Positions 4,051-31,756 of a stretch of DNA of 53,869 bases are shown in pieces. The stretch comes from Verrucomicrobiota bacterium (GTDB lineage Bacteria > Verrucomicrobiota > Verrucomicrobiia > JABWAM01): positions 1 through 53,869 of the forward strand of contig JACQHZ010000387.1 of NCBI GenBank assembly GCA_016198745.1, read 5' to 3'. A model generated the notes under the pieces. The model was not told the DNA's origin and ran no database searches. It saw nothing but the letters and a program-made list of their open reading frames with translations. Each line of letters starts with the position of its first letter. Position 1 is the first letter of the stretch. Both the position numbers and the translations under genes were made by a program.

Positions 4051-4243
4051 TCCGGGAAACTTACCGTCCGATTGGAAATTTGGCAAGTCCTGAGCCTGTC
4101 GAAGCGGCCTTGAGAGATCGAGCCGAACCAACCTCTGCAGGCGACGCTTTGCCGCGCTACCTGCGTCGTTCTTTTTTCCTATCAGAAGTTGTAATCCAGA
4201 TTGACAACCTGGGGCGGAAGCCGCATCCTCGAGTTTCCATCGC

Positions 4244-14843: not shown

Positions 14844-16910
14844 TTACACCATATCCATCTCGAACCAGAATGCCAGCGCCGCGGTATCATGGCCGATTTG
14901 CACTTGAATCCTGGCCTCGCTCGAGTTGTTTTGGAATGGAACATCGCTTCCCGAAAGCAACTCCGTCACCCGTTTCAGGCGTTTCCCCTTTGGAACCTGG
15001 AGCGTCATCGGAAACGCGGTCGGCTCTTTGAAATAGGAGGTCACCAAGCCCAGATAACCACCCTCGCCTTCCAGCGGAAAAAATTCGAACGTTGACACGT
15101 CCCGCTGATCGAATGGTCGCAATCGTTTCATTGGCACCTCCGGGGGCCAGTTCTCAACGCGCAACGCCGGCTTCGTTCCCGCCACCCACTCGACCAGCAG
15201 CGGCAAAAGGGTGTGCGCGCGATTCAGGACGGTCGTGTGGAAGGCCGGGCTCTCCGCCGTGCGCGTCGGAAAGCCGGCGAGCCACACCATGCGACCCCTT
15301 CCCTTTAGCGAAAGGATTGCGGGGCTGTCCTCAAACGAGGCCAAAACCTCCGCGTCGGACGGCGCGTCCGCGATCACGCAATGGCGCAGCGCGAAGATCG
15401 GCACGTGCGCGCCGCCCAGGTAGCGTTGCGCGCCTGCTTCGTCCATGGTTTCAAGCGTTGCGAGAGCGGGATGCTTGGCCGTCAATTGGAAGGGTCGTTG
15501 CTTCGGCGCTTCCTCGCGAATGCGAATGCCGAATTGTTCCTCGAGAAATGACCTTGTCCGAGGCGCGCCCGTCTCAGTCGCCGAACCGAGATTGCCCAGA
15601 ATGACCAGGTTACCGCCGCGGTCCATGTAAGCCCGCAGCGCGGCGGCCTGATGATCCGATAAACAATCGAGTTCAGGCAGGACGATGACGCGGAATTCAG
15701 ACAGTGACCGCTCATCCATGCGACGATCAGGAAGAAAAGCGTAGGGAATGCCCTTGTGACGCAACGCCTCCGCGACCGGCATGACGCGCGTGCCGTCGTA
15801 CGAGTCGGGCACGGTCGCGGGCAATGGGCGCGCGAAAATTTCCGTCTGCGCGCCGTGGACGATGGCGGCGTGCTTGAGCGGTTGGACCTGTGCAAAATAG
15901 CGGTCAAGTTTGAAACAGGCTTCGTAGGTTTCCTGCACCGGAGATGCTTTCTGAAAGTGGTAGCAGTACGGCGTAACCTGGTTGATGCCGCACGCGAGCG
16001 GTACGAGCGCCGACCAATAGCCATCCTCTCGACCCAGCGGACGCGTGAACGTCGGGTGCGAAAAGCCCTGCACGACCATCTCCGCCTCTTTCTCGTCGGG
16101 CACGATGCCGCGCAGGAAACGGCACCATTCGCTCAAATAAACCTCGGCGGGATTGAAGTGGCGCTCGTGAAACGTGTAGTACGGGTCGGTGCTGAGGCCG
16201 TCGAGGCGCTCGATCATGCCCGATAAATCCACGCCCGTGCTCCACGGGTTGAGCCACAGGTCGCTGGCGGGCGATGCTTGAAAGACCGCCTTGATGCGCG
16301 GGTTGACGGCATGAATGACCGCGGCCATCTCGCCGTGAACGCAATTCCATCGGTCCATTTTCCATTTCAGATAGGCGCGCCAACACGCGTCGCGCCAATC
16401 TTCCGCCTTTGGTTCGGTTTTGAGCGGCATCTCGCCGCCGATCTCGCGCGCATAATCCGCGCGGCAGGTCTTGCAGTAGCAGCCGGAGAGCAGGAACGCT
16501 TCGTCGTTGAGCGAGAGGCGCGTCACCCCCGGCAACCCGGCCAGGCGCTGCAGAAACGCGATGTATCGCGCTTTGAACTTCCGATTGAACGGACAACCCC
16601 AGCTCGACGCGCTCAGCCCATCCTGGTCGCGCACGTCCTCGGCGGTGACGAGCCGCTGATCGGGATGCTCGGCCAGGTACGCTTCATCGTACTTCATATA
16701 ACCCGTCATCAGCCAGACATCGAGCTTCAATGCGGCGGCGCGCCGGCAAAACGCAGCAACGAAATCCGCGTCGCGTTGGAACACGAAAATCCCAGCCGCG
16801 CGATACCCCTTCGCCGCGATCTCAGGCAGGAGATCGAACAGTTTCTCCGGCCGGCCTTCCGCATCATGCAGGAACGCGGCGCGGTGGATGAGGCGCGGGA
16901 TGGGTCGCAT
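14844..16910 (-). CDS. GH42-like glycosidase with glutamine-amidotransferase-fold domain
   Basis: A 688-residue protein. The start at 16910 (MRPIPRLIHRAAFL) is chosen because the longer frame runs into the remnant of another gene. Residues 10-390 look like a TIM barrel (GYRAAGIFVFQRD, LKLDVWLMTGYMKYDE, LSLNDEAFLLSGCYCKTC, YFAQVQPL later), with Glu in LNDEA a candidate catalytic acid. About 395-520 resembles the beta-galactosidase trimerisation/GATase-1 fold (FRVIVLPELDCLSDHQA, DRGGNLVILGN). A beta-domain ends the protein. There is no signal peptide. It is not assignable to a named GH family by eye. Its 3' end is duplicated at 3867-3953 and its first six codons at 27601-27618, showing that it once lay between the DUF6067-like gene and C45. 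Confidence 0.7.
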   Translation of the reverse strand: MRPIPRLIHRAAFLHDAEGRPEKLFDLLPEIAAKGYRAAGIFVFQRDADFVAAFCRRAAALKLDVWLMTGYMKYDEAYLAEHPDQRLVTAEDVRDQDGLSASSWGCPFNRKFKARYIAFLQRLAGLPGVTRLSLNDEAFLLSGCYCKTCRADYAREIGGEMPLKTEPKAEDWRDACWRAYLKWKMDRWNCVHGEMAAVIHAVNPRIKAVFQASPASDLWLNPWSTGVDLSGMIERLDGLSTDPYYTFHERHFNPAEVYLSEWCRFLRGIVPDEKEAEMVVQGFSHPTFTRPLGREDGYWSALVPLACGINQVTPYCYHFQKASPVQETYEACFKLDRYFAQVQPLKHAAIVHGAQTEIFARPLPATVPDSYDGTRVMPVAEALRHKGIPYAFLPDRRMDERSLSEFRVIVLPELDCLSDHQAAALRAYMDRGGNLVILGNLGSATETGAPRTRSFLEEQFGIRIREEAPKQRPFQLTAKHPALATLETMDEAGAQRYLGGAHVPIFALRHCVIADAPSDAEVLASFEDSPAILSLKGRGRMVWLAGFPTRTAESPAFHTTVLNRAHTLLPLLVEWVAGTKPALRVENWPPEVPMKRLRPFDQRDVSTFEFFPLEGEGGYLGLVTSYFKEPTAFPMTLQVPKGKRLKRVTELLSGSDVPFQNNSSEARIQVQIGHDTAALAFWFEMDMV

Positions 16911-16985
16911 GGAATGGGTTGTGGTTGCTCGTTTCCGGAGGTAAAAGTGAAGTTTACCGTTGGACGGTAAGGATAGCAAACAGAC
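16893..16985 (-). repeat. Operon-junction direct repeat, copy 1 (glycosidase start / DUF6067-like tail)
   Basis: This 93-base stretch holds the first codons of the glycosidase, the gap, and a decayed tail of the large gene at 27660: the reading LFAILTVQR-stop corresponds to QFAVPAAQR-stop there. The second copy is 27601-27694 in the same orientation. The two copies flank 16986-27600. Confidence 0.88.
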
Positions 16986-17197
16986 CCATCCTAACCACCA
17001 ACCGAATCGCAGTTCAACAGCAAGGTGACGCAAAGAAACAACGATTCTTACGGTCGCTTCCGCGCGCCAGGTCGCGCGCAACACGCTCCAAGAATTCGCG
17101 GCCGCGGGTGATCTTTACGCAGCGGACATTCTGAAGACATGGCCCCAAGAACAACCCTGAAGCACGGATGAACACCTGATCGGTGGCCTTTCTCCCA

Positions 17198-18257: not shown

Positions 18258-18497
18258 ATGAAAACCCTGAACCTGAAAGAACTCGTCAAAGATGCCCCTG
18301 CGCTTGTCGCGATGATCAAAGAGGGCGAGGAGGTGACCCTGACTGAGAACGGCCGGCGCCTGGCGAAAATCGTTCCATTCGAGCCTTCGCGGAGAATGCC
18401 GCGACCCGCCGGGCTGGCTCAGGGACAGTTCACCGTGCCGAAGGATTTCAACGATCCATTACCGGACCATGTATTGCAAGATTTTGAAGGGACATGA
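18258..18497 (+). CDS. Phd/YefM-type antitoxin
   Basis: A 79-residue protein. MKTLNLKELVKDAPALVAMI then EGEEVTLTENGRRLAKIVPF is the typical Phd/YefM DNA-binding fold, where a beta-hairpin carries the VTLTENGRRLAKI strand. The C-terminal tail (QGQFTVPKDFNDPLPDHVL) is the flexible toxin-wrapping segment usual in VapC partners. AGGTGG lies a few bases upstream of the start. The stop overlaps the start of the VapC gene (ATGA), so the pair is translationally coupled. Autoregulation is expected from the family. Confidence 0.92.
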   Translation: MKTLNLKELVKDAPALVAMIKEGEEVTLTENGRRLAKIVPFEPSRRMPRPAGLAQGQFTVPKDFNDPLPDHVLQDFEGT

Positions 18498-18880
18498 GAA
18501 TCCTGCTGGATACGTGCGATTTCCTCTGGTTCATCTCAGGCGACAGGTCCCTTCCGCCCTCGACTCAACAGGCGATCCAGGACCCAAATAACGAGATCTT
18601 TCTCAGTGTCGTTTCATTGTGGGAAATCACAATCAAACACGCGCTTGGCCGGTTGCCATTGCCACAGACGCCGGACGCGTATATTCCGGCTCAGCGTGAA
18701 CGGCACGGCATCCAGTCTCTAAGCCTGCAGGAGGCCGTCGTGAAGCGGCTTGTCAAGCTGCCCGCGATCCACCGTGATCCGTTTGATCGCATACTCGTTT
18801 GCCAGGCGCAGGAACACGATTTGCATCTTGCCTCCAGCGATTCGTTGGTTGCGCAGTACCCGGTGACGTTGCTGCCGTGA
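18494..18880 (+). CDS. vapC: VapC-type PIN-domain toxin
   Basis: A 128-residue PIN-domain ribonuclease. The first acidic residue is in LLDTCDFLW (Asp6), the second in SVVSLWEITIK (Glu near 46), the third in HRDPFDRILVCQA (Asp near 98), with Asp in ASSDSLV near the end, which together form the metal site. Length and motif spacing are normal for VapC, so the protein should be active. It follows its Phd-type antitoxin with an ATGA overlap. The family cleaves tRNA or rRNA; the target here is unknown. Confidence 0.93.
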   Translation: MRILLDTCDFLWFISGDRSLPPSTQQAIQDPNNEIFLSVVSLWEITIKHALGRLPLPQTPDAYIPAQRERHGIQSLSLQEAVVKRLVKLPAIHRDPFDRILVCQAQEHDLHLASSDSLVAQYPVTLLP

Positions 18881-19148
18881 TCCTTGCTCCGAGCATCCGA
18901 GGCCATCCACTAAGAAAACGGGGACTGACGAGTTTGAGGGATTGTCAGAGCCTGGCGCGATAAAAGCGCATCCGGCGAACTCGCAGACGGAATTCAGGCG
19001 CTTCCTGTGCAATCAGGATTTAGTCTTTGAAGCTTGAGCTGGCGGCGAATGTGCGCTAGGTTTCCGTCGTGACTCAAAACCCAATTTGTGATTTTCATCT
19101 CGACATCCTGAACCGCGCGCCGGTATGGGTCGGCACACAGATGAAATC

Positions 19149-19514
19149 ATGATTCAACCTTTGTTGAAGCCGGCGCCGATCCAGGAGGTGGATGAGGCGC
19201 TATTGCAAGAAATCACGACGCGCATTGTGGAACACTGCCGTCCGTTGTGGATCGTGTTATTCGGCAGCCGGGCATGGGGAACGCAGCGGCGCGACAGCGA
19301 CGTGGATTTGTTTGTGGAGATGGAGTCCAAGGAACCGCCACACGAACGGCGAATGAGGATTCGGCGGCTGTTTCAAGGGCGCCGCTGGGGGCTGGATTTG
19401 CTGGTGTATACGCCGGCTGAAACCGCCGCTGAACGTGCGATTCCGGGGACCATGGCGGCAGGCATTGAGCGGGGAGGCAGAGTGCTTTATGAGCGCGAAG
19501 ATTCCAGCGGTTGA
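19149..19514 (+). CDS. MNT-type minimal nucleotidyltransferase (MntA-like)
   Basis: A 121-residue protein with the GSx10DxD nucleotidyltransferase motif: GSRAWGTQRRDSDVD near residues 38-52, a further acidic residue near 93, and Gly-rich GGRVLYERED at the end. In MNT/HEPN modules this protein is the antitoxin that adds nucleotides to the HEPN ribonuclease. It overlaps the next gene by 26 bases, a normal arrangement, but here the HEPN partner is truncated, so the module is probably non-functional. The start at 19149 is preferred over 19125 because it begins the conserved region. Confidence 0.9.
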   Translation: MIQPLLKPAPIQEVDEALLQEITTRIVEHCRPLWIVLFGSRAWGTQRRDSDVDLFVEMESKEPPHERRMRIRRLFQGRRWGLDLLVYTPAETAAERAIPGTMAAGIERGGRVLYEREDSSG

Positions 19515-19893
19515 GGCATGGGTGCGCAAGGCCGAGAATGATTTCAAGAACATTCGCGACAGCCTGCGAGGCGGCGATCCCGCTTGGGACACGGTCTGTT
19601 ACCATGCGCAACAAGGCAGCGAGAAGTATCTCAAGGCTTGCCTCATTGTTCAGGGGATTGAGCCCCCGCGCGTTCACGATCTGGAGGAATTACTGATTTG
19701 GCGTCAACCGCGATCACCGAACTCGGTTTTGTGCGGATCCTGGGTCAGGCCCCCCAATATGGACTGCGCGTTGAAGATGCGCAAACCTTGTTGGCGCGGC
19801 TCAAAACCCAAAAAACCATTCATTGGACTTTTCTTGCTGATGACCTCGTTGTGGAACGGCTTCCCCGCTGGGTCAGGTCGGCGAAGCACGTGA
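19489..19893 (+). pseudogene. Truncated HEPN (HepT-like) gene, chimeric 3' end
   Basis: The first 69 codons match the HEPN domain: AWVRKAENDFKNIRDSLRGG, CYHAQQGSEKYLKACL and EPPRVHDLEELL parallel the intact protein at 26825-27244. From about 19696 the frame leaves the family and reads through an unrelated PIN-domain fragment in another frame to a stop at 19893. The second helical half, with the ARYPG segment seen in the intact paralogue, is missing. The overlap with the upstream nucleotidyltransferase is kept. It is probably a deletion scar. Confidence 0.85.
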
Positions 19894-19988
19894 CCGATGG
19901 CCACTTGGCGGAACTGGCCAAAGTTCATGGAATGATCCTCGCCACACTGGATCGTGGAATACCTGGGGCTTTCGTCCTGCCGGGATAA
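19698..19988 (+). pseudogene. vapC: C-terminal half of a VapC/PIN toxin gene
   Basis: The frame reads ASTAITELGFVRILGQ, then ARLKTQKTIHWTFLADD, then HVTDGHLAELAKVHGMILAT and LDRG. These are the middle and C-terminal blocks of the VapC subfamily that has TENGFVR and HRQVTDAYL motifs. The N-terminal strand with the first catalytic Asp is absent, and the sequence is joined directly to a truncated HEPN gene. A matching N-terminal half lies downstream at 20056-20142, so the pieces occur in reversed order. Confidence 0.8.
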
Positions 19989-20055
19989 ATCCAGCGATGT
20001 CCTGGAAAGCTACTGCTCCGGAGTGGACTGCTGAGAAAGACACGGCCATGATCCA

Positions 20056-20142
20056 GTGGATACATCCGTGATCGTTGCCTGGTTGGACCGTTCGCACCCG
20101 CAACATGGACGGTGCACGAAAGCGTTGAAATCATGGGGGATG
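20056..20142 (+). pseudogene. vapC: N-terminal fragment of a VapC/PIN toxin gene
   Basis: GTG begins DTSVIVAWLDRSHPQHGR, then CTKALKSWG, the opening strand and helix of a PIN domain with the first catalytic Asp. Similarity ends near 20142; the open frame continues to 20265 with unrelated residues. It cannot be functional alone. With 19698-19988 it suggests two former tandem vapC genes from which the middle was deleted, or one rearranged gene. Confidence 0.75.
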
Positions 20143-20268
20143 TGGATTTCATTTTCCCCGGTGGCGATTAGCCTGGTTTTTGATGCGCTTTCCATTCTTC
20201 TTCCAACGCCGCAATCTCAGAAACGGCTTTTCCTTTCTCTGTTTTGGCGGAAAAATCCGGGCTGAACC

Positions 20269-20454
20269 TCAAAGCTTGATTTTGAGTTTTTGGCATGCCT
20301 GCGCCGGAGAATAGCGACGGCCATCATCGTGCGTGCGGCATTGGAGGATGGCAAGGTGGTCTTGCATGTCTTCCAATGCCTGCCGAAGGCGGGAAATCTC
20401 GCTCCAGCGTTTTTTCAGCGCGGCATCCACTTTTTTAAGGGCGGTTTTAGTCAT
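20269..20454 (-). CDS. Small coiled antitoxin-like protein downstream of a RelE toxin
   Basis: A 61-residue basic protein (TKTALKKVDAALKKRW, EISRLRQALEDMQDHLAI) that is probably helical over residues 3-40 with heptad-like leucines, then SPAQACQKLKIKL. I do not recognise a named family. It overlaps the RelE-type toxin by 8 bases on the same strand and follows it, so it is the likely antitoxin in toxin-first order, as in HigBA or some ParE systems. The assignment rests on position and size. Confidence 0.6.
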   Translation of the reverse strand: MTKTALKKVDAALKKRWSEISRLRQALEDMQDHLAILQCRTHDDGRRYSPAQACQKLKIKL

Positions 20455-20689
20455 AAATTTCCTTTCGATTTCCAATTGCGCGGATCAGAACCGTGTCGCC
20501 AATCAAATCGAAGAGGATGCGATAATCTCCCATACGCAAGCGGTAATCGCAATCATGATGTGTGAGCCGCTTGATGTCTCCGACCAAGCCAGACTGCAAC
20601 CATTGGATCTTCCGCAAAATCTGGGCGGCTTCCCTTTCCGGCAAACGAGCAAGATCCTGCAGGGCGGCGGTGGTCAATTCGACTTTCAT
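20447..20689 (-). CDS. RelE/ParE-family toxin
   Basis: An 80-residue protein, MKVELTTAALQDLARLPEREA at the start, then ILRKIQWL, GDIKRLTHHDCDYRLRMGDYRILFD and VLIRAIGNRKEIYD. The YRLRxGDYRIxF block and the final His/Lys-Arg-containing strand are the RelE fold's hallmark; RelE toxins cut mRNA on the ribosome. The short start at 20689 is chosen because it begins the domain; the longer frame adds an unrelated leader. The small overlapping gene downstream is the likely antitoxin. Confidence 0.9.
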   Translation of the reverse strand: MKVELTTAALQDLARLPEREAAQILRKIQWLQSGLVGDIKRLTHHDCDYRLRMGDYRILFDLIGDTVLIRAIGNRKEIYD

Positions 20690-20873
20690 TTTCTTGCGAG
20701 GGTTGCTCTTTCCCCACTGAGGAATAATCCATTTCTCGACATCTCCTATCTGGCGGCAAAACGAAATACGCGCAGGTCGTGAGCGGGGGGCCATGCCGCC
20801 GGAGTAAAAGATGAAATTCCGAAGTCAAGACCCTGCATCCCACAGCGACAAGTCTGTTGGGTTCAGCGTGAAG

Positions 20874-22655
20874 TCAGAATCCGTAAACGGCCTGGAGATA
20901 AAGGGACCCGATCCCGCCTTCGGCCTTCAAACTTCTGCCGGCGTTTTCATAGCTGCCGAAGTTCACGTCGAACCCCAGGCGCGTTCCCCAGTTTTCGCTG
21001 AAATCATAGCCGGTAAAAACCTGCCCGTGCACATAATTCCACTGGTCCAGCCCAAAGGCCGCCCCATGGACGCCCAAATACCAGCTCCGCGACACGAAGC
21101 TTTTGATTTCCGCGCCAAGGAGCGGCGTGGCATAGAGGATTTCCTGGGTGCCTTTGCCGCTGAGCGTGAAACGGTTGTTGGCATCGGCAACGAAAAGTTC
21201 TTCGTCCAGAAAAGCCCACTTGGCGCCGAAAAAAGGCGTCACGATCCACGTCTTGTCTTTATAGACATCGTAGCCCAAAGTCACTGCAACCGTGTTTAGA
21301 TCGGCTGTGCCGTCCACAACAGAACCAGCAGGCAATGATGTGCCCTCGCCTCCTTTAAAAATCGCCTTGGTGGTGTGTCCGCGTTGATCATACCGGTCAT
21401 AGGTATGCTGAAAACCGATATGAAATTTTGGAAACGCCTGCCAATCAATATCTAATTGGCTGCCAGAAACAAAATTCTGGTTGAGGCTCAGGTCGTCGCC
21501 AAAATCAAAATCAGTTCCCGTCTGGCCGAGGCGCGCCGAGCCAAACACCTGGCCGAACCGCGGTCCCGCGCGCATTTCCAAGGTGCGGTTTACGGGTTCA
21601 TTCAGACCGATGTTTCCTTCGGAGGATCTTAATTTTATTGATTTGGGATTTCGGTTGCTCACAGCGGCCGGCCCAAAGTCAAATTTGTAAAAACCGCGAA
21701 CTTCGCCGCCAACATTGGCCACCTTGTAATCGAACCCGCGGTTTATGGAATTGTCGTAGGCCGTCGATCCAAATACGGCGATCTGGAGCCACGAAAGTGG
21801 TTGCCAAACCGTTTCCAAGGAGACGCTGGCAAGATGCTCTTGGCGTCCTTGGAATGAAGTGTTGCCGGAAGTTGGGGGACGGAAATCATAGATCTGCCAG
21901 TTGCCGCTTAAAACCGCCTGGGAACTCAGGGTGGGAAGCCACTCGTAGCCAACCCCCGTGAAGATCGTATGTTCGATGCGTTCGAAAACCAAAGGATTCG
22001 TGTATTTTTTGTCAAACTCATATCCGTAAAACCACGCCAGCTTGTTGTCGAGATAATGCTGCACGTTGACCAGGCTCAAATAAGGGTTGCACTCGCGATA
22101 AACCTCTATCTCTTGGTGGGGTGAAGTGATCCACAAGCCGCGAATGCCGGCGCTGATCCGCAGATCCTGAGCGAACGGCAGTTTGTAACTCGTGCCAAAG
22201 GAGGTGTTGTTTGCGTCGCTGTCAAGAAATGGGTTTTCGTCGTAGCGCGTCATGCTGAAATTGTAGTCCGCGAAAATGAGCCACTCTGGCGAAAAGCGAT
22301 AGGAAGCGTCCACCCCCTCCGTTTCCATCCACACGCTGTCACCCTTTTCACCGGGACCGCTGCTCAGAAGCGCATTGCTCGTCCAAAACCCGCGCGCGCG
22401 GACATAGGGGGTGATGGCCCCCCGCTTGTTCGGTTTCAGCGTGAGAAGTTCGCCAAATTCTTCGTCTTCGGCGCCAGCTTCGGCGACCGTTGGAGTTTCG
22501 CGGAAAGAGGGCGCCGTTTCCTTCTGGAGTTCCTGGCTCCGGCGGATCGTATCCTCCCTGTTCTGCTGAGCAAATATCGGCCATGCCATGAGTCCCACCA
22601 CCAAGAAGGGCAGGAGGCGGACCCAACTGACAAAGCGATGCTTCTTGGTGGTCAT
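20874..22655 (-). CDS. Outer-membrane beta-barrel protein
   Basis: A protein of about 593 residues with a signal peptide (LLPFLVVGLMAWPIFA) followed by an acidic, Gln/Glu-rich linker and then alternating hydrophobic/aromatic strands to the end. The last residues, YLQAVYGF, end in Phe as outer-membrane barrels do. Repeated strand units such as WLIFADYNFSMTRYD, LAWFYGYEFDKKY and FHIGFQHTYDRYDQ support a barrel of many strands. An in-frame ATG at 22685, only 2 bases after the preceding stop, would add 10 residues and hint at coupling. It is the last gene of a three-gene operon with a FecR-domain protein and a Gly/Ser-rich secreted protein. The transported or bound ligand is unknown. Confidence 0.82.
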   Translation of the reverse strand: MTTKKHRFVSWVRLLPFLVVGLMAWPIFAQQNREDTIRRSQELQKETAPSFRETPTVAEAGAEDEEFGELLTLKPNKRGAITPYVRARGFWTSNALLSSGPGEKGDSVWMETEGVDASYRFSPEWLIFADYNFSMTRYDENPFLDSDANNTSFGTSYKLPFAQDLRISAGIRGLWITSPHQEIEVYRECNPYLSLVNVQHYLDNKLAWFYGYEFDKKYTNPLVFERIEHTIFTGVGYEWLPTLSSQAVLSGNWQIYDFRPPTSGNTSFQGRQEHLASVSLETVWQPLSWLQIAVFGSTAYDNSINRGFDYKVANVGGEVRGFYKFDFGPAAVSNRNPKSIKLRSSEGNIGLNEPVNRTLEMRAGPRFGQVFGSARLGQTGTDFDFGDDLSLNQNFVSGSQLDIDWQAFPKFHIGFQHTYDRYDQRGHTTKAIFKGGEGTSLPAGSVVDGTADLNTVAVTLGYDVYKDKTWIVTPFFGAKWAFLDEELFVADANNRFTLSGKGTQEILYATPLLGAEIKSFVSRSWYLGVHGAAFGLDQWNYVHGQVFTGYDFSENWGTRLGFDVNFGSYENAGRSLKAEGGIGSLYLQAVYGF

Positions 22656-22687
22656 TGCGGAAAGAAATAAAATTGAGAGGTTCATTT

Positions 22688-23881
22688 CTAGTTTGTGCGA
22701 AAGGTTCCCCTTCTGCCGTCCTGCGCTGTATAACTCCCACTCACTCGCGATCCTGAAAGACTGAATGATCCATTGACAGACCCAAGCCCGGCGGGGTCGG
22801 TTGAGGAACCGCTTCCAGAGAAGGTCCCGCTTCCGATGTTAATTTGCCCGATGGCGTTGGCCGTGGCGCCACTGCTTGTGGTCGCCATGAGCGAAACCTG
22901 TCCGCTGCTGCCGACCGACCCGGTAAGAATGGCCGTGCCGAATCGGTTGCTGCCGGCGCCTATAATCGTGCCATCGGAAAGGATCGCGATGGCTCCAGTT
23001 CCGGCATTGATGTTTCCCGTTCGGCCGGTGGCGGTTGAAAATGTAATAATTGTCCCGGCGAGACGGCTTCCGCTCAGTGATTGCACCGTCACCTGCGTGG
23101 TCGTCTCGCTGCGCGGCACCAACTGGCCATTCTGAAATCCACCGTGGGAAATCTGGTCCCGTTGAAGCTCGCGCGTATTGTTGATCCCGTTCTTTGCGTT
23201 TTCCGGAAAATCGGTTGGAAAACCGCCCCCCTTCTTACGAGCATTGTTGAGCATTTCCTGATCGACCTTATGAGCACCGATATCTGTGTCGTTGTAGTGC
23301 GAAAGATCACCCTGGAACCGGGCTATGGCCTGCTTCACCGCATCCGCTTGTGCATAAAGCTCATTGGTTGCCATGTGGGCAAATTCCTCGCCCTTCATAA
23401 CCAGGAATACCCCACCTACGATCAAGCCGGCCACCGGCACTCCGGCACCTGTAACAGCTATGATGGCTGGTCCAGCAATAACCACCTTGCCAGCCACCAG
23501 CGTTCCCTCAACCATGGTTGCTATTGCTCCATCAATAATCATCTCCGCGCCAACCGTCGAAATAAGGCGCCCCAAGCCAAGCTCCGTCCCGGTTCTCAGG
23601 CGATCATTGGATTGGTAGAGCTTCACAGTGTCAATCACATTTCCCACTCCCTCGCAGATATGACCGAGATTTGTCCCTGTTGGGGCGTTTTTTTTGGTGA
23701 TTGCTTCCATAATCCCGCCCCACTCCGATGCGCCGCCTATAGCGCCAATAATTTTAATTGCCGTTTCTGATTCACCGCCCTCCATCTGTCCTCCATCAAC
23801 CTGCTGTGCCCGCAACGAGGTGTGAAATCCGATAAGCAGGCATGTGACAGCAACCAGTGTTCTGCGTGAAGAATGTTTCAT
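22688..23881 (-). CDS. Secreted Gly/Ser-rich protein of unknown function
   Basis: A 397-residue protein with a signal peptide (LVAVTCLLIGFHTSLRAQ). Residues about 110-165 are very hydrophobic and Gly/Val-rich (VVIAGPAIIAVTGAGVPVAG, GLIVGGVFLVMKG), as if to insert into a membrane or form a glycine-zipper. About 165-255 is hydrophilic. The C-terminal 135 residues are low-complexity Gly/Ser/Thr/Asn, with repeats such as SGSRLAGTI, GTAILTGSVGSSG, SGSGSSTDP and LSGSRVSGSY, suggesting a beta-helical or beta-roll surface domain. I do not recognise a family. It lies between a FecR-domain protein and an outer-membrane barrel. Confidence 0.7.
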   Translation of the reverse strand: MKHSSRRTLVAVTCLLIGFHTSLRAQQVDGGQMEGGESETAIKIIGAIGGASEWGGIMEAITKKNAPTGTNLGHICEGVGNVIDTVKLYQSNDRLRTGTELGLGRLISTVGAEMIIDGAIATMVEGTLVAGKVVIAGPAIIAVTGAGVPVAGLIVGGVFLVMKGEEFAHMATNELYAQADAVKQAIARFQGDLSHYNDTDIGAHKVDQEMLNNARKKGGGFPTDFPENAKNGINNTRELQRDQISHGGFQNGQLVPRSETTTQVTVQSLSGSRLAGTIITFSTATGRTGNINAGTGAIAILSDGTIIGAGSNRFGTAILTGSVGSSGQVSLMATTSSGATANAIGQINIGSGTFSGSGSSTDPAGLGSVNGSFSLSGSRVSGSYTAQDGRRGTFRTN

Positions 23882-23930
23882 TGTTTTTCCCTTGTTTTTC
23901 TCGTACAGTTCAGTGATCGAGTCATTAGTT

Positions 23931-25505
23931 CTATCTACCGGTTAAATTGAGGCACACAAATTTCCTGATATTTCTGTTCGCTTTTTCAAAGCAAATTGTC
24001 GCGAAATATGTTGGAATACTTTCGACCTGCAAAAAAATGGAGATATGCGTGCCGTTTTGGAGGACATAAACAGGCTGAAAATTTTTGCGCATGATCGCCG
24101 GGATCGAAAAAATCTGCTTGACCGACATCGGGTTATCCTGGGGGATGGCCGCAGCGAGCTTATCGGATTGGCTGCCAGCGATGACGTTGAGGAAGCCCTT
24201 GAGCGGCTCTCTCCAGGAATCCTTTCCTTTTTTATCTATCGCGCCAGTCAGGTTGACGATTGCGCCGGCGAGTCTTTGTTCGATGATGCGCATTTCCGAT
24301 TCCTCATCGAGCTTCAGGACGGCGGGATTGGCCGCGCTGGAAAACGGATTCTTTGCGCCAAAGGCTTCAATAAACTTTTTGGAATTGTCCACCAGAGAGA
24401 GTTCGGGCATTTCTTCTTCAAGCCAATGCGGCCTGAGTTCGGGGACACTCCCCCTTTTGAGAAGAGATGAACCCGTAATCACTCGACAATTGATCGTCTT
24501 ATTCGTTTTCCGTTCCCAATCTTGAACAACCGCTGCATCAAGATAAGGATTGTAAAATGCAGTGCGTGAGATTTCGGCGTTAATGTGCGACACCAGCAGG
24601 GTTGAACCGCCAAAAAAATATTGCCATACTTCCGGGGCCTTCTTGAAGAGATCCCGCTCAGTTATCACATTGAAGGTGTCACGGCCGGAAGCGTATTGCC
24701 TGAAAGCCCCTTTGATATCCGAACAAGCAACTTTTCTAAATGAAGCGGCAGAACCGAAAAACTGCATGTTCTTCTCCGAAACCATCTCGTCAGACGATTC
24801 CTTCTTTTCGGGATTCTTGAGCTTTTCCTTTTCCGGTTTGCTGCCCGACTCAGGAACACTGGCGTGGCTGCCGGTATTTACCCCGCGTAACAACATGGAA
24901 GATCTGACAAACGCTTCGATGTCGATGTACACGGGTTCTGGAAGAGTCGCCGCGCTCGTGGCGACGCTTAGCATCTGACCGGCTTGTAATTGGCGCATCT
25001 CTTTTGTCCGCACATGACTGACGGTGATTTCCCCGCCATCATCGTGCGAAAGAGCAACAATCTGTGTTTTCTCGCGAGCAACGCGGATCGTCACTACGTC
25101 TCCCCCATGGATGACGCATATGCCAGACGGGGTCACGATCCTTGTTCCATCAGTTCCGGGCGGCACATAAATCAAAGCAATTCCACTGTCTAGTTTCATC
25201 TCGCGCGATTGCGGATCGAAATTGAATAAAGTGTTGGAACCAAGCCGCGTGATGGACTTGTCTAAAAACTCAATTTCGGCCCGCGATTTTTTCCCGGTCT
25301 GAATTACATCCGAGCCGGAAACCGCATCATTCACCGTCGCCTCCCGTTTTTCGCCGGTGCTTTTCGCCAAAATCACCTCGTTATGCGCATCCGTAACCCG
25401 GGCCGACTTCAATGGCGCCGCTTCCGTTGGGAGAGTGATGAGAATGGTTAAACTCAGCCAGGCGGCTGTTTGCAGTATAATGGAGCTTGTATTTGGTCGC
25501 ATCAT
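23931..25505 (-). CDS. FecR-domain secreted protein
   Basis: A 524-residue protein; the start at 25505 is chosen because AGGAG lies 8-12 bases upstream, while the longer frame has none. A signal peptide (LQTAAWLSLTILITLPTEAA) is followed by a FecR domain at about 30-180: EVILAKSTGEKREATVND, then SRAEIEFLDKSITRLG, FDPQSREMKLDSGIALIYVP and VTPSGICVIHGGDVVTIRV. Residues about 220-240 are a charged Lys/Glu linker. The remaining 290 residues (SDIKGAFRQYASGRDTF, VWQYFFGGSTLLVSHIN, ETK-free) are of unknown fold. In Gram-negative bacteria FecR domains sense or scaffold at the envelope. It heads an operon with the Gly/Ser-rich protein and the barrel. No sigma factor gene lies alongside, unlike classical FecIR. 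Confidence 0.85.
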   Translation of the reverse strand: MMRPNTSSIILQTAAWLSLTILITLPTEAAPLKSARVTDAHNEVILAKSTGEKREATVNDAVSGSDVIQTGKKSRAEIEFLDKSITRLGSNTLFNFDPQSREMKLDSGIALIYVPPGTDGTRIVTPSGICVIHGGDVVTIRVAREKTQIVALSHDDGGEITVSHVRTKEMRQLQAGQMLSVATSAATLPEPVYIDIEAFVRSSMLLRGVNTGSHASVPESGSKPEKEKLKNPEKKESSDEMVSEKNMQFFGSAASFRKVACSDIKGAFRQYASGRDTFNVITERDLFKKAPEVWQYFFGGSTLLVSHINAEISRTAFYNPYLDAAVVQDWERKTNKTINCRVITGSSLLKRGSVPELRPHWLEEEMPELSLVDNSKKFIEAFGAKNPFSSAANPAVLKLDEESEMRIIEQRLAGAIVNLTGAIDKKGKDSWREPLKGFLNVIAGSQSDKLAAAIPQDNPMSVKQIFSIPAIMRKNFQPVYVLQNGTHISIFLQVESIPTYFATICFEKANRNIRKFVCLNLTGR

Positions 25506-25587
25506 AGGGGGGTCTCCTGATTTGGTTGGCGCTCTAAGGCGACAGTGGCGAAACACAATGCCGCGAAAATCTTGCTGACTCCATTGG

Positions 25588-26532
25588 TTACGATTGTCCG
25601 AATTTCGCGTTTGCTTGTCGGATTTTCACCCGGTATTGAGTGGGGCTTAATCCCGTATGTTTCCGGAAACAGTGGTTGAAGTGGGCGATGGTCTGGAAGC
25701 CTGCGGCATAAGCAACCTTCTTGATCTGGCTGGAAAAATCCCGAAGCTGCGACTTGGCTTTCTCAATGCGCACGAGAGACAGGAAGTTCTTGAAAGTCAT
25801 TCCCGTTGCCGTTCGAAACATTTTGCAGAAATGCTGGGGGCTGCAGTGGACATGATGGGCGACATCGGCCAGCCTCAATGAGCCGCGCTCCTGCGCTTGG
25901 AGGTTGCACGCATGCGCCTGAATGAACTCCTTGGCGCGCATGACCTGCTGAGGTTCTCCGTCTTGGTTGGCAAGCATCCAGGCGGGCAGGCAATCGCTTA
26001 AAAGTTTAACGAATGAGACGGCCATGCGCACGTTGGCTTCAAACTGATCCGGCGGCACCACTGGCATATTGAACCAAGCTTTGTGAAGGCGGGGCAAATC
26101 AGCTTTCAACCCCATTCGAGCCAGGTTTCTGGAAACGCGGTCGAAATCGGCTTGATTCGGCCTCCGGAGGAAAACATCGCCCGCGAGAAGAGTCGCCACC
26201 TGCTTGCCGCCGATCGCGATTGGGATGACCGCATGGGTGAAGCCCGCGAGGCATTGCGCGCGCCGATGGCGGCTTTCTTGCAAGGCGCGCCGCTGAAGTT
26301 CCAACCGGGTCTTGATGTAAAGATTGCGGCCTTCGGCAGTTTGACACAACAGCGTCCAAAACGGTGACCGGGCAACCCGTCCCACCATCTCGTTGCTTGC
26401 CACATCAACGGGAAGCAGCCTCAACGAAATGCCGGTCGCTTTGCAAAATGCAGCCATCCACTCGCGGCTGACCCGCGATTTCGCCAAGGCAAGGTATGGT
26501 GATTGCGGTTGACGAACTTTGTCTTCGGACAT
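25588..26532 (-). CDS. PocR-domain AraC-family transcriptional regulator
   Basis: A 314-residue regulator. Residues about 10-175 resemble a PocR ligand-binding domain (REWMAAFCKATGISLRLLPV, SPFWTLLCQTAEGRN, VIPIAIGGKQVATLLAGDVF). The C-terminal 100 residues are an AraC/XylS pair of helix-turn-helices: SLRLADVAHHVHCSPQHFCK, then MTFKNFLSLVRIEKAKSQL, and the second HTH IKKVAYAAGFQTIAHFNHCF followed by FRKHTGLSPTQYR. It lies 82 bases upstream of the FecR operon on the same strand and may govern it, or govern the pilin/glycosidase operon to the right; no operator is visible. PocR domains bind small hydrocarbon ligands; the ligand here is unknown. Confidence 0.9.
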   Translation of the reverse strand: MSEDKVRQPQSPYLALAKSRVSREWMAAFCKATGISLRLLPVDVASNEMVGRVARSPFWTLLCQTAEGRNLYIKTRLELQRRALQESRHRRAQCLAGFTHAVIPIAIGGKQVATLLAGDVFLRRPNQADFDRVSRNLARMGLKADLPRLHKAWFNMPVVPPDQFEANVRMAVSFVKLLSDCLPAWMLANQDGEPQQVMRAKEFIQAHACNLQAQERGSLRLADVAHHVHCSPQHFCKMFRTATGMTFKNFLSLVRIEKAKSQLRDFSSQIKKVAYAAGFQTIAHFNHCFRKHTGLSPTQYRVKIRQANAKFGQS

Positions 26533-26631: not shown

Positions 26632-26669
26632 ATCACAGGCACGTGGATGCCCTTGGAAAGACACTTTCG

Positions 26670-26824: not shown

Positions 26825-27244
26825 TTATTTTCCCTTTCGTGCAACTTTCTCGGACAATATGGCGCGAATTTCTCCGCGAATCCGCCGGGCGGTCCGCACT
26901 GCCCATCTGGCTTCGGCCAGTGGGATTTCGCTCCATCCTGGATAACGCGCGTGGGTGGCATAGTCGGTGAGCTTCCCTTGTTCTTCGACCGTGTGAGACA
27001 GCCGAACAGGCACAGGCAACAGGGAAACCAACCTTTCCAAATCGTGGGTCTTGGGAAAGTCAACGCCTTTGAACACAAGAAGAGCTTTCACATATTTCTC
27101 CACGCATTGCTGGGCGTGAAAACAGACGGTATCGGTTGGACAATCTTTCCCTAATTTGAGGGTGTGGATTGCGTTCTTGAGATCGTTTTCAGCCTTGCAG
27201 ATCCATTCGTGAACCACGGTCAGGGATTGGTCAAGAGCGGGCAT
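26825..27244 (-). CDS. HEPN-domain ribonuclease toxin (HepT-like)
   Basis: A 139-residue helical protein of the HEPN superfamily. The opening HEWICKAENDLKNAIHTLK and TVCFHAQQCVEKYVKALLV form the first helical pair; FPKTHDLERLVSLLP and the C-terminal YATHARYPGW segment complete the domain. HEPN proteins of this size paired with an MNT partner are RNase toxins or modified effectors. It starts 14 bases before the end of the nucleotidyltransferase gene on the same strand, so the two are coupled. It is the intact counterpart of the broken gene at 19489. Confidence 0.9.
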   Translation of the reverse strand: MPALDQSLTVVHEWICKAENDLKNAIHTLKLGKDCPTDTVCFHAQQCVEKYVKALLVFKGVDFPKTHDLERLVSLLPVPVRLSHTVEEQGKLTDYATHARYPGWSEIPLAEARWAVRTARRIRGEIRAILSEKVARKGK

Positions 27245-27563
27245 ATAACACCTCTCCTTCCAACATGGCAGGCCGTTCAATGGTGCCGGGAATTTCCTTC
27301 CGCCACTCAAACTCTTCGGGGGTTGTGACAATGATATCCTTGGGGATCCGGAAGGAATGAAGCAGAGAACGAATTTCCAACTGTTTTTTGCGTTTCAACC
27401 CCGAAACCGGCATGACAACCAGAAGGTCCACATCACTATTGCGGCCGGCATTCCCGCGCGCATGGGAGCCAAATAGAATGACTTTCACGGGGCGAAATCG
27501 TCTCACGATCCGTCGTGTCATTTCCCGGATTTGCCTTCTGCACGATTTTTTCTCGGTCAACAT
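27231..27563 (-). CDS. MNT-type nucleotidyltransferase antitoxin (MntA-like)
   Basis: A 110-residue minimal nucleotidyltransferase. GSHARGNAGRNSDVD fits GSx10DxD, with DLLVVM closing the strand and a third acidic region near 85. KVILFGSHARG is the classical opening. The start at 27563 (MLTEKKSCRRQ) is preferred; a longer frame enters the operon-junction repeat. Together with the overlapping HEPN gene it forms a complete MNT/HEPN module. Confidence 0.9.
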   Translation of the reverse strand: MLTEKKSCRRQIREMTRRIVRRFRPVKVILFGSHARGNAGRNSDVDLLVVMPVSGLKRKKQLEIRSLLHSFRIPKDIIVTTPEEFEWRKEIPGTIERPAMLEGEVLYARS

Positions 27564-27600
27564 ATTTTGCCAGTATAAGGCAGTCAGGCGGCGAGGGCAA

Positions 27601-27694
27601 GCGCGGGATGGGTCGCATGGAATGGGTTGTGGCGCTGTTTCCGGAGGCAAAAGTGAAGCTTACCGTTGGGCGGCAGGGACCGCAAACTGAAAGA
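27601..27694 (-). repeat. Operon-junction direct repeat, copy 2
   Basis: The second copy of 16893-16985. It begins with six codons of the GH42-like glycosidase (ATG at 27618, reading MRPIPR) and runs back through the gap into the last codons of the large gene at 27660 (QFAVPAAQR-stop). Similarity to the first copy ends at 27601. It marks the right-hand boundary of the segment 16986-27600. Confidence 0.9.
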
Positions 27695-30600
27695 CCCGCA
27701 GGTCGTGGGCGGGGATTTTTAGTTTCCACTTTTTTGGGACGGCGATCGCATCGCCCGTTTCCATGTTGCGGCAACTTGAAAACGATCCGAATCCGGCCGG
27801 CAGCGTCACGGCGGCATCCGTTTCCTTGTCCGACCAGTTGGCGACGGCCACAAGATAGTCGTCCGTGGCGAGTTTCTTGTAGTAACTCACCTTGATCGAG
27901 GCGGGATCGGCGCGCACATCGTTCGCCCAGTACGGATGGAAGGTTGTGTCCGCCAGGCCAAACGGAATCTCGACCTTGTTCCAGAAGTCTTCCACCGTTC
28001 CGACGGGAATGTAGGCGGGACGAAGGCGGGTGTTGTGCAGGAAGGTGAAGGCGAGGATTTCCCGCGCGTGCGCAACCGTGTTGAGTTCGGGAAGGTAGCC
28101 ATACTGGGGCAGCACGATGTTTTCGACGCCGAACTGCGCGCCAAAACAGCTCCTCCAGCCGAATGCATCGTAACTCTTGTCGCTCTCGGATTTGCCGGGC
28201 AAGGCGCTGGGGTTGCCCTCCAGGCTTTTTTGGAGCACCAGATCGCTGAACCCGAATTTCCGGTCCGGCTTGATCTCCTCGCCGTTGATGGTCATGTCCC
28301 AAAATGAAGCATAGGGCGCACACGCCGCAAAGCTGTGCCCGATGAACCACGGTTTCTTGCCCGGCCCGCGGTGGGTGTCGAAGAGCCAATAAAGGCGTTT
28401 GTAAAAATCGCGGGTGGCCAACGATTCGAAGGTTCCCTCCTGCACGCCATCCTTGGTCAGGTAGGCATGGCCTTTGTCCGGATCAAGGCTGATGGGCGGG
28501 GTCGAGATGTCGAAGAAGAAGCCTCCGAAATCGGGTTCGTGTTTCAGGATTTCCCGCACGCCTCCGGTAAAGAAATCCGTGTACGACCCGCTGGGCGTGG
28601 TGAAGACTTCTTCGCGCGTTTCCATGGGAGTGGTGGCCACCCGGGGAGGAACCGCATCCCAATCCCGCTGGTAGTAGAAATACTCGTCCGTCTTGGTTGC
28701 GTCCTTCTTGGTCTTGATGGTCGCATCGGATGGATACGAGGCGTTCAAGTCTTTGGGGAGCGGGAAATCACGGCGAATGTAATCCCATGGGCAGATGAAG
28801 AAGGCGCCGATGTAGGGGTTGAGCTGCTGTCCGCGGGATTTGGCCAGGGTGATCAGGTCCTTCAGCACCGGCCAACTCCGGGGGGAAGGCTTGCTGTCCG
28901 TCGAGTTCCAGATGGACGCGTGGGTCATCAGGACGTTGTAAGGGGGCGGCTCCGCTCCGTTGCCCGCTCGTACTTCACGCAAGCGCGGGGGCGTTGGTTT
29001 CAGGGGCGTGGCCTGCATGCCGAACTGCAGTTCGAGAGTCGCGGAAACCTCGGACGGCTCGTTGATCAGAAGGAGATTGAGGGTCTTGACCGCACCTTCC
29101 GTTTTCAGGGTGATGCGCGGCTTGGAGGAATTGATCCGCCACCCTTTATAGTTCTCGGCAAAAAAGCTGCACCCCACATCGTCGTTGCCGAGCCAGATCA
29201 GGTGGTATCGGCGGGGAATCTGGAACGTGCGGTCGAGCGCCAGGCCATGCTGCCACCAGCTCCCCTCCCGCCCTTCGGCCGCCATGGCGAGGGAATAGAC
29301 GGCGCCGTCCAAGGGAATCTCAACCCAGAGTCGCTGAACAACGCCCTTCTGCCGGGGGGTGAAGCGCAGGGTCATCAGATGCATGCCATCGAACTCGATG
29401 CGATGCCGAACGGCGAGATCGAAGTCGGGCGCGGAGGCGGACTGTTCAAGTTCCACCCGTCCGCGGGCGCTCGCGCGAACCGTCGGCGCGGAAAGGGGAA
29501 AACGGATTTCCTTTCCGTCGCGGAGATATTTCACCGCGACCGGCGCGGCCAGGAGCGGCCGCTCCTGACTGGTGATGCCTGCAAGGAGACTGCCCTTCTG
29601 CATTCGATGCGTCCGGCCCCACATCGTCACCTCGCCTTCTTTGACCTTCAGCGGCGTCCAACTCGACGGCACCCAGTCCGGGTCCAGCGCCTGAATTCCG
29701 GCCCGGTCCTTGAGCCACGCGGGATCTTCCCATTTACGGAAAGGCGTGGTGGTGGTGAAGACCGACTGCCCCTGCCGGCTCTTCAACTCGAATACGACCT
29801 GGTAATCACCCGGGGACAGGGGCGCCATGGAAAGAGGAATATTCATCTCCTTCCCGGTGATCGGCAGGTCGCGCGAAAGGACGCCCTTTTCTCCCTGTCG
29901 GAACTCGACCCGCAGCGCGCCTTTGTCCTCATCCCTCGCGCCGAGGAAGGCCACCCGCGCTTCCACCAGGTTCTTGCTCGGAATCGGCATGAGAGCGGCC
30001 ACCACTGGCGGAGAGAAGTGGAACGGGACCTTCTGATACCACACCAACTTGCCCCCCAACCGCGCCTCCGTCTCGAGAACGTAGTACCTGGGCGTTTCGA
30101 GTTGTCCGGTGCCGGACTCAGTTTTCGTTTCCCCCGGCTTGAGGGTTCCGGATGGATTCCAAAAATAAACGCTGTGGTCCCGCAACACCTGCTTCGCGCC
30201 AGCGCCCATTTGCTGGTCGAAAATCCATGTGCCCACCGCGCCCTCCACCATCCGGGGCGTGGACACCAGATAAAGCAGTTCGTAGGGCACGTCAGTCGGC
30301 CCGCCGTTGGTGAGCGTAAAGGCAGGGGCCACCACCCCCTGCACGATCTGCTCCGACAATTTCAACCGGGCAACGGCCGGATCCTTCGCCACGCGCAGTT
30401 GTCCAAAAGCCTGGTAGTGGTCGAACCAATTGGCGTGCAGTTGCCAGGCCACCCGGCGATCCTTCAAGTGGACGCCGAAGCTCAGGAGATATGTCCGCTC
30501 CTCGCCGGGCGCAGGCAGCCGAATGTCCTCCCAAGGTACCGAGGCTTCAATCGTCCAAACGCCGTTGTTGATCTTCGACGCGACCTCCCAGTTGCCGTTG

Positions 30601-31145: not shown

Positions 31146-31756
31146 TCGGCCGGCGCGAACGCCGCGTCGTCCACCCATAGTTCGCCGTGAACTTCGATCG
31201 CGGGCCGGACCGTGACATCATCTCCCGCGGGCGCCACGCACAGAAAGCGGCATTTCTTCCAATCGGTCTCGCCTTCCAACGAGTAATGGCTGGAGCTGCC
31301 GTCCGCCTCCTCGCGGCTCACCGTCGCCAGCGAAACGGAGGACTTGAAGCCGGCCACGCCGTTCACCTTGTGATAGAAGTACACCCAAGCGCCGGCCTTG
31401 CCCCGTCCTTTCGCCCAGTAGCTGAAGTGATAGCGCGCCCCCGCTTTGACCGGGATGACGGCATCGAGATACAGGTGTCCGGGCAGCGGTTTACCGGCGT
31501 CATCAACCCGGCTCTGCACAAGGCGGACCGAGCATTCGCCGCCCCGGACGAATCGGGGATCGCCCCGAACGGCCTCAATCACCTCAAAGGGATAACCCGC
31601 CGAAGCGTTGACGCGCCACCCCCGCAACACGCCGTTCGCGGTGACATCCTCGAAACCGAAATCGGGTGACGAATCCAGCCCAGCCGTTTCTCGACAAATC
31701 ACCGCCACCGACAATAACAGAAATCCCCGGAATCCTCGTCTCAACCATGACATCAT
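31142..31756 (-). CDS. Small secreted carbohydrate-binding-like protein
   Basis: A 204-residue secreted protein. The signal peptide (GFLLLSVAVICRETAG) precedes one domain that resembles CBM4/9-type jelly-rolls: PDFGFEDVTANGVLRGWRVN, CSVRLVQSRVD, YHFSYWAKGRG and a closing DDAAFAPAE. Such domains hold glycan chains. It stands between the pseudopilin gene (22 bases upstream) and the DUF6067-like gene (ATGA overlap), so all three are probably one transcript. It could serve as a glycan-binding partner delivered by the pilin; this is inference. Confidence 0.65.
   Translation of the reverse strand: MMSWLRRGFRGFLLLSVAVICRETAGLDSSPDFGFEDVTANGVLRGWRVNASAGYPFEVIEAVRGDPRFVRGGECSVRLVQSRVDDAGKPLPGHLYLDAVIPVKAGARYHFSYWAKGRGKAGAWVYFYHKVNGVAGFKSSVSLATVSREEADGSSSHYSLEGETDWKKCRFLCVAPAGDDVTVRPAIEVHGELWVDDAAFAPAE

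Follow-up and report, generated by a model that had tools for sequence, protein, structure and literature searches.

FecR protein, Gly/Ser-rich protein, and outer-membrane barrel: one system or a split one?

In the 53,869-nt stretch of Verrucomicrobiota DNA analyzed here (the window), three consecutive genes encode a FecR-domain protein, a Gly/Ser-rich middle protein, and an outer-membrane barrel protein, and the question arises whether they form one ancestral envelope system, as proposed in the preliminary description, or have come together in another way. The reading favored below, which is considered fairly probable, is that of a two-gene FecR–barrel envelope module whose FecR–tail gene was split by an in-frame two-gene cassette, giving two hybrid proteins that dock on the barrel.

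Organization of the locus

The three open reading frames lie on the minus strand (as do all features given coordinates below), with gaps of 49 nt between the FecR and middle genes and 2 nt between the middle and barrel genes (32 nt if the second ATG is used), and each protein begins with a signal-peptide-like stretch, in agreement with the preliminary description. Hybrid protein 1 (23931..25505; 524 aa from the ATG at 25505, in a reading frame opening at 25556) consists of a signal peptide, a FecR domain, and a C-terminal domain of unknown type, named FecC here. The FecR domain (PF04773) was matched at residues 66–150 with an E-value of 7e-8 and 33.2 bits against a curated cut-off of 24. Hybrid protein 2, the product of the middle gene (22688..23881; 397 aa), consists of a signal peptide, a glycine-rich hydrophobic domain, and a FecR-type tail, and is followed by the 603-aa double barrel protein (20874..22685); neither of these two has a Pfam match.

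Located 82 nt upstream of the FecR gene, on the same strand, is a gene (25588..26532) for a transcriptional regulator with a PocR sensor domain (PF10114, 8.5e-16) and an AraC-type DNA-binding domain (PF12833, HTH_18, 1.5e-21), a homologue of which (E 5e-62) occupies the same place ahead of a FecR paralogue on contig C388 of the same genome. No sigma-factor gene adjoins the three genes, as had already been remarked. A promoter and terminator scan of the locus gave matches at or below chance; a single good-looking hairpin-T site is present at 26632–26609, upstream of the AraC gene. The earlier suggestion of a mobile segment is hinted at by the PIN, ParE, and HEPN/nucleotidyltransferase genes flanking the locus and by a 33-bp imperfect direct repeat bracketing 6.9 kb, but no integrase was found among the neighboring genes scanned, and the inserted stretch described below is without end repeats.

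A conserved pair of FecR protein and barrel

In the AlphaFold2 model, the 603-aa protein folds into two separate barrels: barrel N (residues 88–332; 21690..22424), with 12 strands, and barrel C (residues 369–602; 20880..21581), with about 10–12. The two halves occur as separate proteins in the relatives G001–G004, and in relatives the barrel C type stands alone and away from FecR genes. The protein is thus predicted to be a fusion of two barrels, and one large porin is rejected by both the model and the separate genes. No POTRA domain is present in the model, no TonB-dependent receptor match was found in Pfam, and barrel N shows a weak local match to EpsL (TIGR03014; E 0.002, 17.1 bits against a cut-off of 275).

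Among 57 relatives, 14 of the 17 barrels of the barrel N type are encoded no more than 10 kb from a FecR gene, where about 1% would be expected, and none of the five barrels of the barrel C type shows such linkage. What is conserved is a pair of genes, one encoding a FecR-domain protein and the other an outer-membrane barrel of 12 strands, and the earlier view that FecR protein and barrel belong together is borne out for this pair. If the favored reading is correct, many secreted "FecR proteins" of Verrucomicrobiota would be components of barrel-linked envelope modules rather than of sigma-factor signaling; searches of the literature for FecR in connection with Verrucomicrobia and barrels gave nothing on point.

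The FecR half of hybrid protein 1 (residues 1–208; 24882..25505) is 43–51% identical, over approximately 180–200 aa, to FecR proteins of G001 and G002 and to the own-genome paralogue on C388. In the relatives, such a FecR protein can end in a linker and Gly/Ser tail, and in the window this segment (22688..23233) is found on the middle gene, 2 nt ahead of the barrel gene. Five tails of this kind are known in all among the 57 relatives, and the other four each end a FecR protein. The window tail matches that of the own-genome paralogue at 2e-20; furthermore, a profile of the G001 and G002 FecR tails alone, with no sequence from the same genome, matches it at 3.4e-5, and one that includes the paralogue but not the window matches at 1e-13. 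The tail-to-barrel spacing is likewise conserved: 2 nt in the window, 3 nt on the own-genome contig C234, 6 nt in G001, and 7 nt in G002. On this homology, the C-terminal ~180 residues of the middle protein appear to be a displaced FecR-protein tail.

An ancestral three-gene system is therefore rejected, since the middle gene was found in the source genome alone and its tail is that of FecR proteins elsewhere. The middle protein does have the Gly/Ser tail and glycine-rich membrane stretch attributed to it, but is not an independent third partner; the trio as such was seen in none of the other genomes examined, which formally refutes the three-gene proposal, whereas the association of FecR, tail, and barrel holds.

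The presumed inserted stretch and cassette-free copies

FecR half, tail half, and barrel are found in that order on one strand in the window. G001, G002 (two genes), and the G000 paralogue have the first two next to each other within a single gene. What separates them in the window is a stretch of about 1.65 kb (23234..24881, with limits reliable to within a few codons) comprising the FecC coding part, a stop, the 49-nt gap, a start, and the middle-gene signal peptide and glycine-rich domain; that is, the C-terminal domain of the FecR protein and the N-terminal ~216 residues of the middle protein were probably inserted together. Between the two junction regions, no target-site duplication and no direct or inverted repeats of at least 9 nt were found. 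The composition shift is small, with GC3 of 0.53–0.56 in the inserted part and 0.58–0.65 otherwise.

A paralogue without the cassette is present in the same genome on two contigs, C388 (PocR/AraC regulator, FecR, repeats) and C234 (repeats, tail, and a double barrel 61% identical to that of the window). These share an exact 96-bp end overlap within the repeat linker, and from this overlap in a repeat would represent one locus. The hybrid arrangement itself is known from a single genome, a metagenome-assembled genome that is 74% complete.

FecC and its secreted partners

The FecC domain (residues 223–524; 23931..24839) was modeled alone by AlphaFold2 with a pLDDT of 83.5 and a pTM of 0.82, as two units of helices and a four-strand sheet, NTF2-like in outline. 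The 290-residue domain singled out in the preliminary description is real, with a confident stand-alone model and a family without a library match (none in Pfam, NCBIfam, or PADLOC). Foldseek searches with the model found nothing in the PDB under 1e-3 (best 0.017), the best matches being mostly single NTF2-like domains at E 0.02–0.5, and no meaningful match among viral structures. Alignment of the domain with itself by profile was confined to one hairpin (E 0.018), which is suggestive of internal duplication.

When the window is left out of the FecC profile, the profile still matches it at 3e-32, and the window domain keeps the signature residues W..FF / FYxP..D..W, with Asn in place of the His of FYHP. 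FecC also occurs as a stand-alone protein in G001 (two), G005, G027 (two), and G035, as well as in Holophagaceae, Spirochaetota, Kiritimatiellae, Desulfuromonadaceae, and a "delta proteobacterium"; the stand-alone protein at locus L075 has 340 aa. Other N-terminal domains are also found on FecC, namely FHA with a membrane helix (L097, L098) and discoidin (L103). Its distribution is sporadic (5 of 384 genomes of the class and 21 of 388 of the phylum). The wide scan was based on three closer members, the seven-member alignment having no conserved stretch; the family is therefore under-counted, and that scan gives poor coverage of the branch to which the window belongs. FecC represents an undescribed secreted family.

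In 34 of the 36 scanned loci, spread over four phyla, a gene for a secreted partner directly follows FecC, on the same strand, with a signal peptide, at −58 to +49 nt, L099 being counted with separately determined ORF limits. Partners of the closer FecC relatives contain glycine-rich hydrophobic segments, and those at more distant loci are helical without a glycine zipper; searches of the partners in Pfam, NCBIfam, and PADLOC included no PADLOC match. The middle gene resembles these partners in position, signal peptide, and hydrophobic segment, which by hydropathy and composition is glycine-zipper-like (residues 123–176; 23354..23515), but has no significant sequence match to them: the best phmmer value was 0.005, over the hydrophobic stretch only, and hhalign against the whole set and subgroups, with shuffle and reversal controls, was hardly above shuffles. 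Because sequence homology to the partners was not found, the grounds for assigning both inserted parts to one cassette are order, signal peptide, and composition.

Proposed mechanism

In the ancestral state, one secreted protein, with FecR domain, linker, and Gly/Ser tail, would have been encoded immediately ahead of the outer-membrane barrel that is its partner. A cassette consisting of a FecC gene followed by a gene for a secreted protein with a glycine-rich membrane segment would then have become seated in the linker; the direction of change would be insertion and not the reverse. FecC would have lost its own signal peptide and taken over the FecR leader and domain, and the second cassette protein would have retained its signal peptide and acquired the FecR tail. 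A ligand sensed by the PocR/AraC regulator may switch the operon on, after which all three proteins would be exported by Sec and the double barrel inserted into the outer membrane. Both the FecR domain and the tail, normally parts of one chain, would bind the barrel, so that the hybrids most likely dock there and keep the membrane-active protein close to FecC in the envelope, with FecC as a predicted binding partner or chaperone of the hydrophobic protein. Each of the two inserted genes now carries a different half of the former protein, an arrangement suggesting joint action of all products in the cell envelope.

If correct, this would be an unusual rearrangement, a two-gene cassette within one gene, in which both inserted proteins become hybrids with halves of the host protein; FecC would be predicted to contact its partner, and the barrel to be contacted by both FecR domain and tail. 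A bolder proposal, put forward tentatively, is that FecC and its secreted partner constitute an undescribed two-protein envelope system spanning several phyla, with membrane activity in its closer members, and that the locus is a natural Rosetta stone tying this system to a dedicated double-barrel outer-membrane module via the split FecR–tail protein. A secreted family with a near-constant partner gene in several phyla, absent from the family libraries searched, would, on the favored reading, become open to a search for its function.

Alternative explanations

The anatomy proposed above overlaps with that of a reading that differs in its task, attachment or matrix formation: FecR protein and barrel as a general display pair for surface adhesins or exoproteins, with an exchangeable payload (beta-helix, repeats, or FecC) between FecR domain and tail. 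Barrel-adjacent FecR proteins of more distant relatives do have long payloads (as much as 1862 aa) that are repetitive and, by eye, beta-helix-like; a further FecR protein has a weak G8 match, and the FecR N-terminus weakly matches Lsa33, a FecR-domain adhesin of Leptospira (E 3e-4 to 2.5e-3, far under the cut-off; PMC3444417). However, the window proteins contain no recognized adhesin domain, the fold of FecC belongs to no known type of repeat or ligand-binding structure, and the FecC pair occurs elsewhere without an adjoining FecR–barrel module, leaving display a possible but less probable task. The export device for a surface polymer or adhesin put forward in the preliminary description is possible.

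An antibacterial role is unlikely. Here the glycine-zipper protein would be membrane-active, FecC would serve it as immunity protein or chaperone, and the FecR–barrel module would present the zipper protein on the surface, an outcome resembling that of the Cdz contact weapon. Surface-retained glycine-zipper toxins have a precedent in CdzC/D (PMC5380434), and the glycine-rich segments of closer partners, the conserved two-gene order, the sporadic distribution, and the NTF2-like outline of FecC are consistent with such a role; yet that NTF2-like similarity is at the E-values given above, the partners are proteins of 180–640 aa with Sec signals as opposed to type-I-exported Cdz peptides of 84–86 aa, the distant partners lack a glycine zipper, and no PADLOC match was found.

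Independent accretion, in which no cassette existed and the FecR gene gained FecC while an unrelated glycine-rich gene was separately fused to a tail fragment, accords with the outcome that no homology was found between the middle N-domain and FecC partners and with the lack of insertion scars. It would, however, need two separate events after which the halves of a single former gene flanked the stretch in their original order, and a secreted partner stands directly behind FecC here, as in nearly all other loci, which makes it improbable as well. Finally, a sensory role, with the FecR domain as periplasmic sensor and the barrel as receptor, is extremely improbable despite the co-occurrence of the two, the classical FecI/FecR form being contradicted by its neighbors, a PocR/AraC regulator plus a double barrel of ~12-strand units rather than a sigma factor and a TonB-dependent receptor, and by a signal peptide in place of the cytoplasmic sigma-binding part.

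Comparison with known systems

The FecI/FecR/FecA iron-citrate system shares with the locus a FecR domain above the PF04773 cut-off and a neighboring outer-membrane barrel, but here FecR is secreted with its own signal peptide, is followed by a variable payload, and lacks the sigma factor and TonB-dependent receptor. Lsa33 (LIC11834), a FecR-domain surface lipoprotein of Leptospira, is likewise an envelope protein in which the FecR domain comes after a signal peptide (PMC3444417); however, it has no tail, and its whole-protein model is far from matched by the window protein. In Cdz of Caulobacter, contact-dependent killing is carried out by glycine-zipper proteins, peptides of ~85 aa that are secreted by a type I system and accompanied by an immunity gene (PMC5380434). 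Envelope-retained proteins with glycine-zipper stretches are a possible common outcome: the middle protein has a glycine-rich hydrophobic segment and may be retained at the surface. This protein has 397 aa and a Sec-type signal, however, and neither a transporter among the neighboring genes scanned nor a Cdz-type immunity gene was seen. The resemblance of barrel N to EpsL, an outer-membrane protein of XrtB/PEP-CTERM exopolysaccharide systems, is local and far below the cut-off. Two-partner secretion (TpsB/TpsA) is similar in that a secreted, sometimes long and repetitive protein adjoins a barrel gene in relatives; it is dissimilar in its 16-strand TpsB barrel with POTRA, as compared with two ~12-strand barrels without POTRA or a Pfam match to TpsB families, and in that a FecR domain is found here where TpsA has its TPS domain.

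The FecR-Barrel Module

The three minus-strand genes lie as the preliminary description placed them, with coordinates and gaps in agreement: the FecR protein gene (25505-23931; PF04773 over residues 66-150), the gene for the Gly/Ser-tailed middle protein (23881-22688) after a gap of 49 nt, and, 2 nt further on, the barrel gene (22685-20874), the latter two without a Pfam family. A PocR/AraC regulator gene is located 82 nt upstream of the FecR gene. The window comes from a genome bin of 6.4 Mb that is 74% complete.

Of 57 relatives, 21 have FecR-type matches and 16 have matches to the barrel. The barrel matches form two classes, covering residues ~13-348 in one protein set and ~363-603 in another; these are distinct stand-alone proteins of 300-400 aa in the relatives, which makes the 603-aa barrel protein a fusion. 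The AlphaFold2 model (mean pLDDT 73, pTM 0.46) contains two separate barrels, one of 12 strands at 88-332 and one of about 10-12 strands at 369-602, with a low-confidence linker between them. A FecR gene was found within 10 kb of 14 of the 17 first-class barrels (barrel N), versus about 1% expected, and of none of the five second-class barrels (barrel C); the three first-class barrels lacking one include the own-genome paralogue on contig C234 and a copy at a contig end (G053:C10). By this linkage, FecR and barrel N form a two-gene module that is widespread. Across the 57 relatives searched, the middle protein was matched in its own genome only. FecR proteins of more distant module members carry long repetitive payloads; those of 1500-1900 aa adjoining or near a barrel gene (L065 7929-13517, L067 7390-12015, and L066 10722-15818) are candidate giant surface proteins.

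A Probable Split FecR Gene in the Window

The last ~180 residues of the middle protein match the C-terminal tail of an own-genome FecR paralogue (E 2e-20), and are also found by a profile from the FecR tails of the related genomes G001 and G002 alone (3e-5) and by a tail profile built without the window (1e-13). Five such tails occur across the 57 relatives searched, four at FecR protein ends and the fifth in the window's middle gene; the window FecR protein has none. The stop of the tail gene precedes the barrel start by 2-7 nt in the window, C234, G001, and G002 copies. Given the tail homology and the tailless window FecR protein, residues 1 to ~208 of the latter (its FecR half) plus the part of the middle protein that begins at residue ~217 account for a single ancestral FecR-linker-tail gene.

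Two contigs of the same genome bear on this arrangement. Contig C388 has a PocR/AraC gene ahead of a FecR gene, within which it terminates; C234 starts within a tail gene and continues into a double barrel 61% identical to that of the window. The two contigs overlap exactly over 96 bp at their ends, within a repetitive Gly/Lys/Glu-rich linker whose reading frame both ends keep. From this we infer, as the simple reading, that they are parts of one locus (PocR/AraC, FecR-linker-tail, double barrel) that lacks the inserted genes and that the assembler interrupted at the repeat. The paralogue split over these contigs (L056 2-1303 plus L055 3-1454) has a long repetitive Gly/Lys/Glu/Ala-rich linker.

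The inserted stretch in the window (24881-23234, minus strand) comprises the FecC part (the C-terminal domain of the FecR protein, a family defined here), the stop, 49 nt, and the 5′ part of the middle gene, from its start through the signal peptide to the glycine-rich hydrophobic part. No repeats were found at its junctions, and its composition differs little from that of the surroundings. By sequence, no tie was found between the N-domain of the middle protein and FecC partners elsewhere, with a best phmmer value of 0.005 in a small set and hhalign scores inside or near the shuffled-sequence range; order, signal peptide, and composition suggest that the two inserted parts arrived together.

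Toxin-antitoxin-type genes lie on either side of the module (18494-20794 and 26825-27650): PIN, nucleotidyltransferase, and ParE occupy one flank, and the other has an inverted HEPN/nucleotidyltransferase pair. A 33-bp direct repeat (85%; 20756-20788 and 27682-27714) encloses 6.9 kb. Each copy codes for PAHDLRVF(R/Q)FA, the peptide with which the product of the GH123-like gene at 27660-31178 ends, and the one directly behind the barrel appears to be what is left of the end of a further GH123-type gene; GH123-like proteins are hugely expanded in this genome (52 matching stretches across several dozen contigs). A 92-bp direct-orientation repeat (88% identity) is found at the nucleotidyltransferase gene start (27601-27690) and in the 5′ part of ORF 14844-17084 (16893-16984).

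The FecC Family and Its Partners

The FecC model (pLDDT 83.5, pTM 0.82) shows two units, in each of which a four-strand sheet (80-122; 254-298) comes after several helices. In the PDB, single NTF2-like domains make up most of its best matches, a likeness in outline only because the matches are at E 0.02-0.5. The family signature is W72, F75-F76, F95-Y96-x-P98, D101 (invariant in 14/14), W108, and W139, in window FecC numbering. A profile built without the window matches the window domain at 3e-32. As a stand-alone, signal-peptide-bearing protein of 320-420 aa, FecC is present in the related genomes G001 and G027 (twice each), G005, and G035, of which G001 shares the family and G005 the order of the window's genome. 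With weaker members included, 21 of 388 genomes of the phylum have it, and a scan of 84,980 species found it in Holophagaceae, Spirochaetota, Kiritimatiellae, Desulfuromonadaceae, and an uncultured delta proteobacterium. Other N-terminal additions are FHA plus a membrane helix, and discoidin. Two acidobacterial bins (L097 7437-8843 and L098 3459-4880) encode FecC in a single protein together with the FHA domain and membrane helix, followed by a glycine-zipper partner.

Directly behind FecC lies a same-strand signal-peptide gene in 34 of 36 loci, the window and some near-duplicates included; at L091, a glycine-zipper gene precedes FecC instead, and L114 has none. Partners of closer members have a Gly/Ala-rich hydrophobic stretch (except at L101), and those of more distant members are helical without it. 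Five verrucomicrobial partners (L062 10302-11072, L075 1261-2634, L076 4905-5816, L091 410-1546, and L092 3664-5589) carry a C-terminal Cys-containing motif, about CxxPCR (GGCSGPCR, RQCTPGCR, GGCGGPCGR, RGGANCR, and TCTRPCR), possibly a sorting or cross-linking signal of these secreted glycine-zipper proteins; in the window middle protein, the FecR tail stands in its place. At L076, a Peptidase C39-like gene (4039-4821; DUF3335, 1e-7) is third after the pair. Distant FecC-like genes at L111, L114, L119, L120, and L121, with mostly helical secreted partners, lie directly behind genes that, judged from sequence, resemble those for Tad-pilus-associated proteins.

Proposed Assembly and Known Systems

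Since the FecR domain and tail are one chain encoded with the barrel in relatives, both would still meet at the barrel after the split; since FecC is constantly paired with a secreted partner elsewhere, the two new proteins would belong together. The likely result would be a three-protein envelope assembly of barrel, FecR::FecC, and partner::tail. We lean, with moderate confidence, toward this architecture-plus-docking model of the window locus; any single task, be it adhesion, a membrane-active task, or another, may apply and is rated below the model.

A search of the open-access literature yielded no description of such a FecR-barrel module. The window locus does not pass the defining tests of FecI/FecR signalling, two-partner secretion, or EpsL, nor the Cdz test for small leader-bearing peptides with type I secretion genes.
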